A stretch of DNA of 40,773 nucleotides from positions 1 through 40,773 of the forward strand of contig JACOSX010000071.1 in the NCBI GenBank assembly GCA_016178625.1, given 5' to 3'. The position numbers were made by a program, and so were the translations under genes. Positions 16,200 to 36,348 of this stretch are shown one piece after another. The stretch is from Ignavibacteria bacterium (GTDB lineage Bacteria > Bacteroidota > Ignavibacteria > UBA10030 > SZUA-254). The notes beneath the pieces were generated by a model, which saw only the letters and a list, made by a program, of their open reading frames with translations, ran no database searches and was not told the DNA's origin. How positions within the stretch are numbered: the first letter of the stretch is position 1; every line of letters begins with the position of its first letter.

Positions 16200-16631
16200 T
16201 TACCCTGTGACCTCTTCAGCGTATTGGGGTTTCGTTACTTCCTTGCCTTTCACGCTCGGTATCTGCGGCTCCGGCTTATCCCAATCCAAGTCGCCTTTGC
16301 CCCACACATACGCGTAGCCGACTAGGAGAACGGCAAGGAAAATCAGCATTTCGACAAACGCATACATTCCAAGCTTCTGATACACTACAGCCCATGGAAA
16401 GAGAAAGACAACCTCAACATCGAACACAAGAAAAATGAGGGCAACAACATAGAAACGAATGTTGAATCTCACCCACGAATCCCCGATGGGTTCTTCACCA
16501 CATTCGTATGAAGTGAGTTTATTCGGATACCATCGTTGTGGGCGTACAAGCCATGCTGTGACGAGACCTCCGGCAACGAAAATCGCGCCGATGATGAAAA
16601 AGATAAACACTCGTCCGAACTCAGTGAGCAT
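16200..16631 (-). CDS. nuoA: NADH-quinone oxidoreductase subunit A
   Basis: First gene of the complex I operon. A 143-residue membrane protein with three helices and the conserved loop KLTSYECGEEPIGDSWVRFNIRFYVVALIFLVFDVEVVFLFPWA, which holds the ND3-type cysteine in YECG. The C-terminal stretch after the third helix is somewhat long and polar. It is preceded by a candidate promoter. Confidence 0.96.
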   Translation of the reverse strand: MLTEFGRVFIFFIIGAIFVAGGLVTAWLVRPQRWYPNKLTSYECGEEPIGDSWVRFNIRFYVVALIFLVFDVEVVFLFPWAVVYQKLGMYAFVEMLIFLAVLLVGYAYVWGKGDLDWDKPEPQIPSVKGKEVTKPQYAEEVTG

Positions 16632-16682
16632 GGAATTATAATATTTTCGAGGTAGAAAGCTTAGAAACTACTGTACAGCGTC

Positions 16683-16713
16683 AAAATATAGAAAGAATTT
16701 GATAGAAAGTCAA
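16683..16713 (-). promoter_or_regulatory. Candidate promoter of the nuo operon
   Basis: On the minus strand, TTG (16713-16711), an exact 20-base spacer and TATATTTT (16690-16683), followed by G, fit the Bacteroidota TTG/TAnnTTTG promoter. A start near 16677 would give a leader of about 45 bases to nuoA. Confidence 0.5.
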
Positions 16714-16834
16714 AAACGGAATTCATCTGCAGCCGGTTCTTAAGGAAGAATTAAATGGAGAGAAACGATTTCTGCGGATGATCGCACGATTGATGTGATA
16801 ATTTTTCGTTCATTCTTTTTTCCAAAAAAAATCC

Positions 16835-16865
16835 TTGACTTTTTCTCTCAAGTGTTGTATCTTTC
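16835..16865 (+). promoter_or_regulatory. Candidate promoter of the small RNA
   Basis: TTG at 16835-16837, a 20-base spacer and TATCTTTC at 16858-16865 match the Bacteroidota promoter pattern. The expected start point lies at about 16870, exactly the first base of the outer stem of the RNA. Confidence 0.5.
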
Positions 16866-16869
16866 GTAT

Positions 16870-16947
16870 GAGCAATCGGGCGAGATCCACGGTTTCTGAC
16901 TTCGCCTCCCAAGTTGGAATGCCACACTTGCCCGTTGCTCGTTTTTT
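16870..16947 (+). ncRNA. Probable small structured RNA with intrinsic terminator
   Basis: About 78 bases that fold into a closed multi-branch structure. The outer stem is GAGCAA (16870-16875) with TTGCTC (16935-16940), continued after a one-base bulge by CGGG (16877-16880) with CCCG (16931-16934). Inside is a strong hairpin, CAAGT-TGG (16910-16917), loop AATG, CCA-c-ACTTG (16922-16930), and a weaker one, CGA/TCG (16881-16883 with 16902-16904), which can extend to GGCGA/TCGCC by borrowing two bases of the outer stem. A T6 run follows at 16942-16947, so the outer stem doubles as a terminator. A promoter lies directly upstream. No coding potential is visible. It does not match tRNA, SRP, 6S or tmRNA features that I can recognise. 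The T-run overlaps the stop codon of the converging gene at 16946. Target and role are unknown. Confidence 0.6.
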
Positions 16948-18691
16948 ATTTTATACCATTAACAATCCCCTGCCGCCATACTTCGAACGCTAACCACCAG
17001 TCTACTTCGGTAGCAAGTTCGAGCTTCCCATGATAAAATTGATCCACTATCTTGACAATGTATGAATGATCGTAGAGTGAAGAATTCTTGACTTCCCTTG
17101 AATGAGCGGTATCCTTGACAAACTCCGATAAGTGGTGCAAGAATTTAACGGGCATCACGTTTTTGAAGGTAATTCCAACTTTCTTCTTCAAGCGTGTCCA
17201 AAGCTGCGAGGTGAGAGTCGACATACCAAAAGGATATGTGGTTCCACCTTTCACGAGGGGGTAAGAGGCTAACGACGGCGATCGGCGCTTGATTATTTCC
17301 CGAAACAATCTTCCGTTCTTCCTTACTTGCACAGGGACTTGAAACATCTTTCGGAGAAATGAAGGCTGCGCAAAGGGCATATAGTTCAATACCATGCTGT
17401 CCATCCTGCTCTGTTCATACGCTCCCCAGTTCGGAAACCGCGTCCGAATTGCCAGGAGATCAAGAAAATTCTCATCTCCAATCTGGATCATGTCCGGCAT
17501 CTGCGTCCAGAGGTAATCAATGTGTTGCACGATAGTGCTCTCCATGGAGCGTATGATCTCTTCATTAAAAATCTTCGCGCGGTGAACCCTGAAATATGGT
17601 GCAATCTTCCGGGGATCCCCGCTATGGAATGCTTGCTTCCCTAACCTCAGGAGCCTATTAAAATATTGTCGCCGCGCGATTTCGCCGAAGCCGCCATCGA
17701 TAACAACTCTGTCCAGTTCATGAATGTGTGGGAAGTACCGCATCTTCAGTACCGAGGATGCCGGTTCGGTTGCACAATTATACGCCATATATTCTTTAAG
17801 AGCCTTGAGACATTGATCCACATCGGGAATGGATTCATGCAAGTGGAGATAAGAAAGCTGTTCTCCCTTTGCAATCCGTTTTGCAAGGTGGACATCTGGA
17901 TCATCAGGATGACCAAAGGTGTGAATGTGATATGTTTGATGAGGGCATCCACGCAAGAGGCACAACAGGAACCTGGAATCCATCCCGCCGGATACACCTA
18001 AGGATAGAGTTTGACTTCTGCCAAGCATTGGATTCACCAGCGCCATCAAGACTGACTCAAGGCTCATTCCTCGCATTTCGTCATGAGGAAGCTCCCACTT
18101 ATGTCCCTCAAGGCAGAGTGATGCTGATGTGCACCTTGCCATTCCAGCGGGACCTAGTCGCTTCACTCCGTCGACAAGGCTTCCCGAGGAAAGCTGATGA
18201 AACGTGAGCCAGTGGGAGCTGAGGGAATCAATATCTACATCACGAAAGTCCATCAACTGTGCTATCCAATCAAGTCGTGTTGAAAAGGCAACGCCATGAT
18301 CTACTTCGGTGAGATACAACGGGCGAAGACCAAGTTGATCGGTGAAGCATGTGATTTGCCCGGGCTGCCATCGGACTATTACGAAATGACCGTCGAGATG
18401 ATCAAGGTGTGGTTGGGGCTCCCTAAGCAGAGTCTGCCACTCGCCAGCAGACAAGAATATACATCGTTCCTCTTGACGGTGGATACCAAGACCGGCTACA
18501 ATCCAACCGGTGTCACTCTTTTGCTCTGAGGAAAATTCCAAACTGGATGAGCACATCGATCGCAATCCTCCTCCAACCAAGTACAACTGGGGGGTTGTTA
18601 TTTTGTAAGAAGGTATGGGATGGAGAGTGGAAATTTTCTGTAGCCGATCTACTGAAGGATGATCGCTTATAAGACCGAGAATCCAGCTCAC
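16946..18691 (-). CDS. Asparagine synthetase-like protein lacking the glutaminase cysteine
   Basis: A 581-residue two-domain protein of the asparagine synthetase B family. The N-terminal class II amidotransferase-like domain (about 1-170) contains DQLGLRPLYL (118-127). The C-terminal synthetase domain carries the PP-loop SLGVSGGMDSR (SGGMDS at 234-239), which binds ATP. It starts M-S-W-I-L-G where AsnB starts M-C-G-I-F-G, so the catalytic Cys2 is replaced by Ser and glutamine hydrolysis is not expected. Length is near AsnB (550-630), but the rest diverges. The start is a GTG at 18691; the alignment with AsnB supports it. Such proteins may amidate or ligate other substrates; the real substrate is unknown. 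It lies 43 bases after the cobalamin adenosyltransferase gene on the same strand. Confidence 0.75.
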   Translation of the reverse strand: MSWILGLISDHPSVDRLQKISTLHPIPSYKITTPQLYLVGGGLRSMCSSSLEFSSEQKSDTGWIVAGLGIHRQEERCIFLSAGEWQTLLREPQPHLDHLDGHFVIVRWQPGQITCFTDQLGLRPLYLTEVDHGVAFSTRLDWIAQLMDFRDVDIDSLSSHWLTFHQLSSGSLVDGVKRLGPAGMARCTSASLCLEGHKWELPHDEMRGMSLESVLMALVNPMLGRSQTLSLGVSGGMDSRFLLCLLRGCPHQTYHIHTFGHPDDPDVHLAKRIAKGEQLSYLHLHESIPDVDQCLKALKEYMAYNCATEPASSVLKMRYFPHIHELDRVVIDGGFGEIARRQYFNRLLRLGKQAFHSGDPRKIAPYFRVHRAKIFNEEIIRSMESTIVQHIDYLWTQMPDMIQIGDENFLDLLAIRTRFPNWGAYEQSRMDSMVLNYMPFAQPSFLRKMFQVPVQVRKNGRLFREIIKRRSPSLASYPLVKGGTTYPFGMSTLTSQLWTRLKKKVGITFKNVMPVKFLHHLSEFVKDTAHSREVKNSSLYDHSYIVKIVDQFYHGKLELATEVDWWLAFEVWRQGIVNGIK

Positions 18692-18734: not shown

Positions 18735-19277
18735 TTAGGGAACCCACTTTGTTTCAGTGGTTTTGGTGAGTGCGTTCACCGAACGAGCGAGAATAAACAA
18801 TAAATCAGAAAGGCGGTTCAGATAGGTCAATGGTTCTTCACCGACCTGCTTCTCACGTGCCAGTCGAACCATGCATCGCTCTGCACGACGGCACACGGTC
18901 CGCGAAAAATGAAGCAAGGCAGCAGACTGGTTTCCGCCCGGGAGGATAAAATTCTTCAACGGTTCGAGCGTTGGATCAATCCTATCGATATGTTTCTCAA
19001 GGCGCGCCACATCCGTCCCCTTAATTCGCTTGAGGTCTGAGCGATTCGAATCAAGAGGGGTAGCAAGATCAGCGCCAAGCGTGAAAAGATCATGCTGAAT
19101 TTCGTCGAGGATCTCATCGATCTCTCGAGCAGGATTCATCGACCGGCACATCCCAAGGACACTATTCAGTTCATCCACCGTTCCATACGCTTCGATGCGG
19201 AGATCGTCTTTGGGAACTCGTTTCCCTCCAAACAACGATGTCTCTCCTTTGTCGCCAGTCTTTGTGTAGATTTTCAT
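18735..19277 (-). CDS. Cob(I)alamin adenosyltransferase, PduO type
   Basis: Transfers the adenosyl group of ATP to cob(I)alamin (or cobyrinate diamide) to form coenzyme B12. The 180-residue protein has the PduO-family signatures KIYTKTGDKGETSLFGGKRVPKDD (ATP site, residues 2-25), YGTVDELNS, and the helix RTVCRRAERCMVRL followed by LNRLSDLLFILAR. It probably belongs to a transcript with the lipoprotein gene (9 bases upstream) and the asparagine-synthetase-like gene, though no functional link is obvious. No other B12 gene is in the window. Confidence 0.93.
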   Translation of the reverse strand: MKIYTKTGDKGETSLFGGKRVPKDDLRIEAYGTVDELNSVLGMCRSMNPAREIDEILDEIQHDLFTLGADLATPLDSNRSDLKRIKGTDVARLEKHIDRIDPTLEPLKNFILPGGNQSAALLHFSRTVCRRAERCMVRLAREKQVGEEPLTYLNRLSDLLFILARSVNALTKTTETKWVP

Positions 19278-35847: not shown

Positions 35848-36348
35848 ATGAGAAAAAAGAAATCAATTTCAGAATTCACGATTCACCGACGTCACCTTCC
35901 ACACTGGGAATTACCAGGCAGTACATATTTCGTAACATTCACACTCAAAGACCGAACGATGTGTAACCTTACTCGAGATGATATTGCCATGCTTATTCTG
36001 AACTCTATTATTTTCTACGCCAACAAAAGATATTACTTGTACGATCATACGATCATGCTCGATCATGTTCACATCATTCTTCAACCAATTGAAAACGATG
36101 GTAAGGTTGATCCGCTAGGTGATATCATTGGCGATATCAAGCAATTTACAGCACACGAGATTAATAAGAAATTAAGGAGAAAAGGATCTTTGTGGTTAGA
36201 TGAATCATACGATAGAATCATTCGAAATGAAAAAGAGTTTAGAGAAAAAGCCAAATACATTTTCGATAACCCAGTGAAAGCCGGCCTGATTGCAAACGGT
36301 GAAGACTGGAAATGGTGGAAAGCCGGAATAGAGCCGATGGGCCGGTAG
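35848..36348 (+). CDS. REP-associated tyrosine transposase (RAYT, Y1 family)
   Basis: A 166-residue HUH-type single-strand transposase of the IS200/IS605-related REP-associated group. It shows the N-terminal RRHLPHWELPGSTYFVTFTLKDR, the HUH metal motif His73-Val-His75 in LDHVHIILQP, and a C-terminal helix SLWLDESYDRIIRNEKEF with the probable catalytic Tyr121, followed by YIFDNPVKAGL. The ATG at 35848 has an ideal GGAGG site 7 bases upstream; an in-frame start 12 codons earlier is less likely. The gene is visibly more A/T-rich than its neighbours. It is flanked on both sides by REP-like palindromes, its expected substrates, and its TAG stop lies within copy B. Confidence 0.93.
   Translation: MRKKKSISEFTIHRRHLPHWELPGSTYFVTFTLKDRTMCNLTRDDIAMLILNSIIFYANKRYYLYDHTIMLDHVHIILQPIENDGKVDPLGDIIGDIKQFTAHEINKKLRRKGSLWLDESYDRIIRNEKEFREKAKYIFDNPVKAGLIANGEDWKWWKAGIEPMGR

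Follow-up and report, generated by a model that had tools for sequence, protein, structure and literature searches.

Conserved, unpaired, C-rich loops that bind ribosome-binding sites have been described in RNAIII and other UCCC-motif RNAs of S. aureus and in CyaR of E. coli (PMC2837412). The small RNA analysed here, encoded in a 40,773-nucleotide stretch of an Ignavibacteria genome (the window), resembles the S. aureus RNAs in its unpaired, conserved C-rich hairpin loop and proposed Shine-Dalgarno (SD) pairing, and CyaR in being small and stand-alone and in having a hairpin loop with conserved anti-SD sequence (PMC2837412). Compared with RNAIII, it is far smaller, has a single loop, has no match in Rfam, and comes from an unrelated phylum, and its targets are putative. 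CyaR is an Hfq RNA, whereas no Hfq was detected in the lineage of the Ignavibacteria RNA, which differs from CyaR also in having no Rfam match. Agrobacterium PmaR likewise exposes an accessible C-rich loop on a spoon-like stem, but most of its predicted sites lie away from ribosome-binding sites, it mainly activates, and no relation to the Ignavibacteria RNA is indicated (PMC6234868). In a related lineage, the Bacteroides small RNAs GibS, MasB, BatR and the FopS family pair near start codons, and an RNA-binding protein, RbpB, has been described (PMC11697453). Searches of the phylum, on the other hand, found no homologue of the Ignavibacteria RNA, and while a single genome can carry 14 FopS members, the Ignavibacteria RNA is present in single copy. 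A text search of the literature found no described Ignavibacteria small RNA.

Transcription signals and fold of the RNA

The RNA, about 78 nucleotides long, occupies positions 16870–16947 of the plus strand (GAGCAAUCGGGCGAGAUCCACGGUUUCUGACUUCGCCUCCCAAGUUGGAAUGCCACACUUGCCCGUUGCUCGUUUUUU). An earlier note on this DNA had proposed that it encodes a small structured RNA equipped with a promoter and a terminator of its own, and the promoter elements it named (TTG at 16835, N20, TATCTTT at 16858) are all present. A promoter scan gave a −35 box, TTGACT (16835–16840, plus strand; TTGACTTTT in most relatives), followed after 17 nucleotides by a −10 box, TATCTT (16858–16863, plus strand). This promoter is sigma-70-like (9/12), with a predicted start at or near 16870; TTGAC was found in 11/11 aligned sequences, at a distance that hardly varies although the sequence of the spacer has diverged. 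At the other end, a U6 tail (16942–16947, plus strand) covers the stop codon of an opposing, minus-strand asparagine-synthetase-like ORF (end at 16946), just as had been described. A terminator scan returned no entry at the locus, because the stem-loop lies beyond the scanner's limit of 3–8 nucleotides for the loop of a simple hairpin; the evidence for a terminator is instead the U-run directly 3′ of the conserved stem in 12/12 homologues. Promoter, structured RNA and intrinsic terminator, all conserved in relatives, are sequence signals that point to an independent transcription unit.

The plus strand of 16870–16947 is predicted to fold at −33.9 kcal/mol, compared with −19.7 ± 3.2 kcal/mol for dinucleotide shuffles (z −4.4; 0/200 as good). 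The complementary strand folds more weakly (z −2.75) and has no U-tail. The closing outer stem proposed previously runs from 16870 to 16940: its 5′ strand (16870–16884) pairs, with one bulged base, with a 3′ strand (16927–16940) that is also the stem of the terminator. Inside it, an internal loop AUCCAC (16885–16890), of which CCAC is near-invariant among homologues, leads to a single irregular hairpin of 12 bp, whose strands (16891–16902 and 16911–16923) present the 8-nucleotide apical loop CGCCUCCC (16903–16910). The CUCCC of this anti-SD-like loop has a predicted probability of 0.77–1.0 of being unpaired. The earlier note had drawn the inner fold differently, as a hairpin with an AATG tetraloop; that arrangement reaches only −19.5 kcal/mol, against −32.8 kcal/mol for the minimum-free-energy structure, and was rejected. 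Among homologues 99.2% of cells are paired in the hairpin 16891–16902/16911–16923, as opposed to 80.5% in the AATG hairpin (RNA positions 41–48/53–61), two pairs of which are broken in 4/10 and 6/10 sequences. No conserved ORF was found, in line with the earlier reading; homologues differ by indels of 1–3 nucleotides, and since such length differences shift the frame they argue against a small protein.

Comparison of the whole window with the covariance models of Rfam 15 gave 0 matches at or above the gathering score. With E values up to 5, the only match in 16600–17000 was a CRISPR repeat lying outside the RNA. The SRP RNA (RF00169) was also considered and rejected, the genome's own SRP RNA lying elsewhere (contig C5, 68.5 bits). 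The statement that the RNA belongs to no recognised family thus held when the Rfam comparison was run, and the RNA is a new small RNA family of a known kind.

Homologues and covariation

Among 60 relatives searched by BLAST, strong matches (E values of 1e-14 or better) were confined to the GTDB family of the window, where ten genomes besides the window gave one. A covariance model built from the window and one relative (G002) found a homologue in 12/15 genomes of the family, representing 10/11 genera, always in single copy; these include a diverged homologue in G001, found by the covariance model. All three misses are accounted for by one genus (g4), in whose genomes the RNA is missing throughout. 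Outside the family, no credible homologue was found with the first model in 197 genomes of the class and 198 of the phylum, nor with a 12-sequence model applied to the order (41 genomes) and the class (391 genomes); the large class and phylum searches use stricter filters, so that a very diverged relative could escape them. Two weak matches from the class search with the 12-sequence model were rejected on inspection: that in G410 is a long, almost perfect hairpin where a contig ends, and that in G444 lies inside a 364-aa ORF. Loop-like strings in G049, G398, G383 and at a second site in G004 were likewise set aside, their surroundings containing no RNA of such shape. The regions upstream of nuoA in genomes without a match gave chance-level scores only, and viral contigs searched with the core of the RNA gave no match. 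We take the range of the RNA to be a single family within Ignavibacteria.

The DNA flanking the RNA is mostly unalignable among homologues. Against this background TTGAC and the −10 region stand out as conserved, their spacing nearly constant, as do the hairpin CCACGGUUUC..ACUUCGCCUCCCAAGUU and the U-tail. A MAFFT alignment misaligned the outer stems, and pairs were therefore counted on a model-guided alignment. On it 95.6% of pair cells are kept, a count that leans somewhat to the structure since the alignment is fitted to the model, itself made from two sequences (window and G002). Despite this leaning the controls were far exceeded: not one measure was attained by any of 500 shuffles, and sliding the structure lowered pairing to 34–46%. 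The outer stem covaries, with both partners exchanged in 8/14 pairs (17 cells in total); for example, GAGCAA/UUGCUC in the window is replaced by GCAUG/CAUGC in G004 and G010 and by GCACG/CGUGC in G007 and G012. In the inner helix, changes are one-sided only (U-G to U-A or C-G; G-U to A-U), consistent with an RNA on the plus strand and not on its complement. The apical loop is identical in 11/12 homologues, the most diverged, G001, having the C-rich CUCUCCC, and in most of the 10 genera hardly any variation is seen over about 45 nucleotides that take in both strands of the inner stem. The earlier note had named a lack of covarying pairs in relatives among the outcomes that would refute it, and the RNA passed this check. 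Together, homologues, covariation and the conserved promoter support its main claim, and 16870–16947 is almost certainly a genuine structured RNA gene.

Candidate action in trans and the search for targets

The best explanation of these features, which we hold on the sequence evidence at a probability of about 0.5, is a stand-alone, Hfq-independent, trans-acting antisense RNA. A housekeeping-type promoter of its own would drive transcription, and the RNA would be ended by its own stem and U-run. The outer stem, variable in sequence and always paired, would act as scaffold, stabiliser and terminator, and the rigid inner hairpin would expose the loop CGCCUCCC as a putative seed, for which its invariance and predicted unpaired state are the expected properties. 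The C-rich loop may then recognise G-rich, GGGAGGCG-like stretches close to where translation of a limited set of mRNAs begins, and by pairing there would block ribosome loading without Hfq. Hfq (PF17209) was detected in 0/30 relatives, the genome of the window included, while 5 control genomes were positive.

Searches for the exact complement of the 8-nucleotide loop before ATG (GGGAGGCG-N2-9-ATG) gave no convincing conserved target. The pattern occurs 14 times in G000 and 31 times in G002, against 3 and 7 occurrences of the reversed pattern, which serves as a rough composition control only. Only a handful of the 80 such places inspected could plausibly be gene starts, and the window's genome offers no convincing one. 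Start regions of the window matched the loop no better than random stretches did (1.25% versus 0.9% at −15 kcal/mol or below). The best match among them (−16.6 kcal/mol) is a strong SD, AACAGGGAGGCUACAAAUG, and is a single case. The ORF behind it (35848–36348, plus strand; SD GGGAGGC) has a weak match to Y1 (IS200-like) transposases (20.7 bits; cut-off 23). By eye, SD sequences are rare among genes of the window, which weighs against the antisense reading; a published survey gives 32% SD use in Ignavibacteria (PMC10783764).

One recurrent lead, the starts of Ser/Thr kinase genes in G004, G010 and G008, was rejected: the motif is present in 4/96 kinase leaders and absent from 92/96, none was found in the window's genome, and the motif, when it does occur, is part of a local inverted repeat. 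Several kinase genes in these genomes (leaders L273, L274, L257 and L266) are preceded by an inverted repeat of the type GGATCCCGCC..GGCGGGAGGCGTG, which includes an SD-like GGGAGG and stops just before the start codon. Ser/Thr kinases that begin with MIGxxISHYKILEKLGEGGMGVVYKA number up to about 25 per genome in the family and often form tandem clusters (G002, G004, G007, G010 and others; e.g. L247, L248, L254 and L273); the window's genome has 9 matches.

The main rival, which we regard as less likely, is that an RNA-binding protein or a ribosomal component binds the hairpin, whose irregular stem, CCAC internal loop and CGCCUCCC loop are near-invariant, and that the RNA sequesters or scaffolds this partner as 6S or CsrB-type RNAs do. 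The roughly 45 near-invariant nucleotides, which include both paired strands of the hairpin, exceed what a short seed needs for pairing, and the searches gave no convincingly recurrent mRNA target. In addition, the CCUCC core of the loop is the core of the 16S anti-SD too, which in Flavobacterium is concealed by ribosomal proteins (PMC10783764). On the other hand, no known protein-binding motif was identified, a CsrA site is disfavoured by the window copy, which lacks a GGA in the internal loop though most relatives have one, and a C-rich unpaired loop of this sort is typical of antisense seeds.

Gene neighbourhood and remaining alternatives

The position of the RNA bears on whether it acts on the genes beside it. 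In the ten relatives whose neighbourhood was compared, it lies between the nuo operon, which diverges from it, and a cobalamin adenosyltransferase gene, which converges on it; in G009 the contig ends before the nuo operon and in G007 extra ORFs intervene. In the window, these neighbours are nuoA (16200–16631, minus strand; PF00507, nuo operon synteny) and the adenosyltransferase gene (18735–19277, minus strand; PF01923, synteny). Between the latter and the RNA stands the asparagine-synthetase-like ORF (16946–18691, minus strand; weak matches to PF13537/PF00733), which adjoins the RNA on this side in the window and G004 and has a homologue here in G004 only; from the sequence comparison, it is a local insertion. 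The diverged RNA of G001 lies at another site, near a response-regulator gene and a tRNA-like stretch (by eye), and a search of that genome detected no close-type nuoA orthologue. The string TAGGAGGTGATG stands immediately after the U-tail of this copy (L071, G001:C182). With neighbours changing among genomes, the position looks inherited and not a fixed regulatory pairing.

Action in cis on the nuoA leader or on the 3′ end of the convergent gene, through interference by transcription or through pairing of the RNA, is accordingly unlikely. In its favour, nearly all genomes compared have the RNA between the nuo operon and the adenosyltransferase gene, and in the window the T-run covers the stop codon of the opposing ORF. 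However, the immediate convergent gene varies, the G001 copy sits between other genes, the nuoA leader contains no loop complement (−4.1 kcal/mol), and sequence conservation is concentrated in the hairpin, which interference does not need. Nor does the RNA resemble a riboswitch or other cis-acting leader, as the genes on either side of it are encoded on the opposite strand, both in the window and in relatives. The earlier note had offered a trans-acting regulator or action on these neighbours; the first part stands as the best reading and the second is not supported, the nearest genes not being constant partners, which favours action in trans.

A more general role is improbable but worth stating: as an anti-SD mimic, the CCUCC loop would compete with the 3′ end of 16S rRNA for the minority of strong-SD mRNAs, or for ribosomal proteins holding the tail of 16S rRNA. 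One RNA would thereby set the level of SD-dependent translation across the genome, in a lineage whose SD use is mixed. A chance hairpin or repeat element is highly improbable, for although the RNA gene is known here from sequence alone, it is a single copy per genome with homologues in 10 genera, it surpasses 500/500 shuffles and the slid controls in covariation, and its promoter and terminator are conserved.

The RNA adds a well-supported, unlisted family to Ignavibacteria, a lineage without a described regulatory small RNA in the literature searched. Most members of this little-studied bacterial family have kept it almost unchanged, and it probably silences the messages of other genes by pairing with them. 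An invariant anti-SD-like loop in genomes with no detectable Hfq would make it a clean test case for Hfq-free RNA regulation under reduced SD use.
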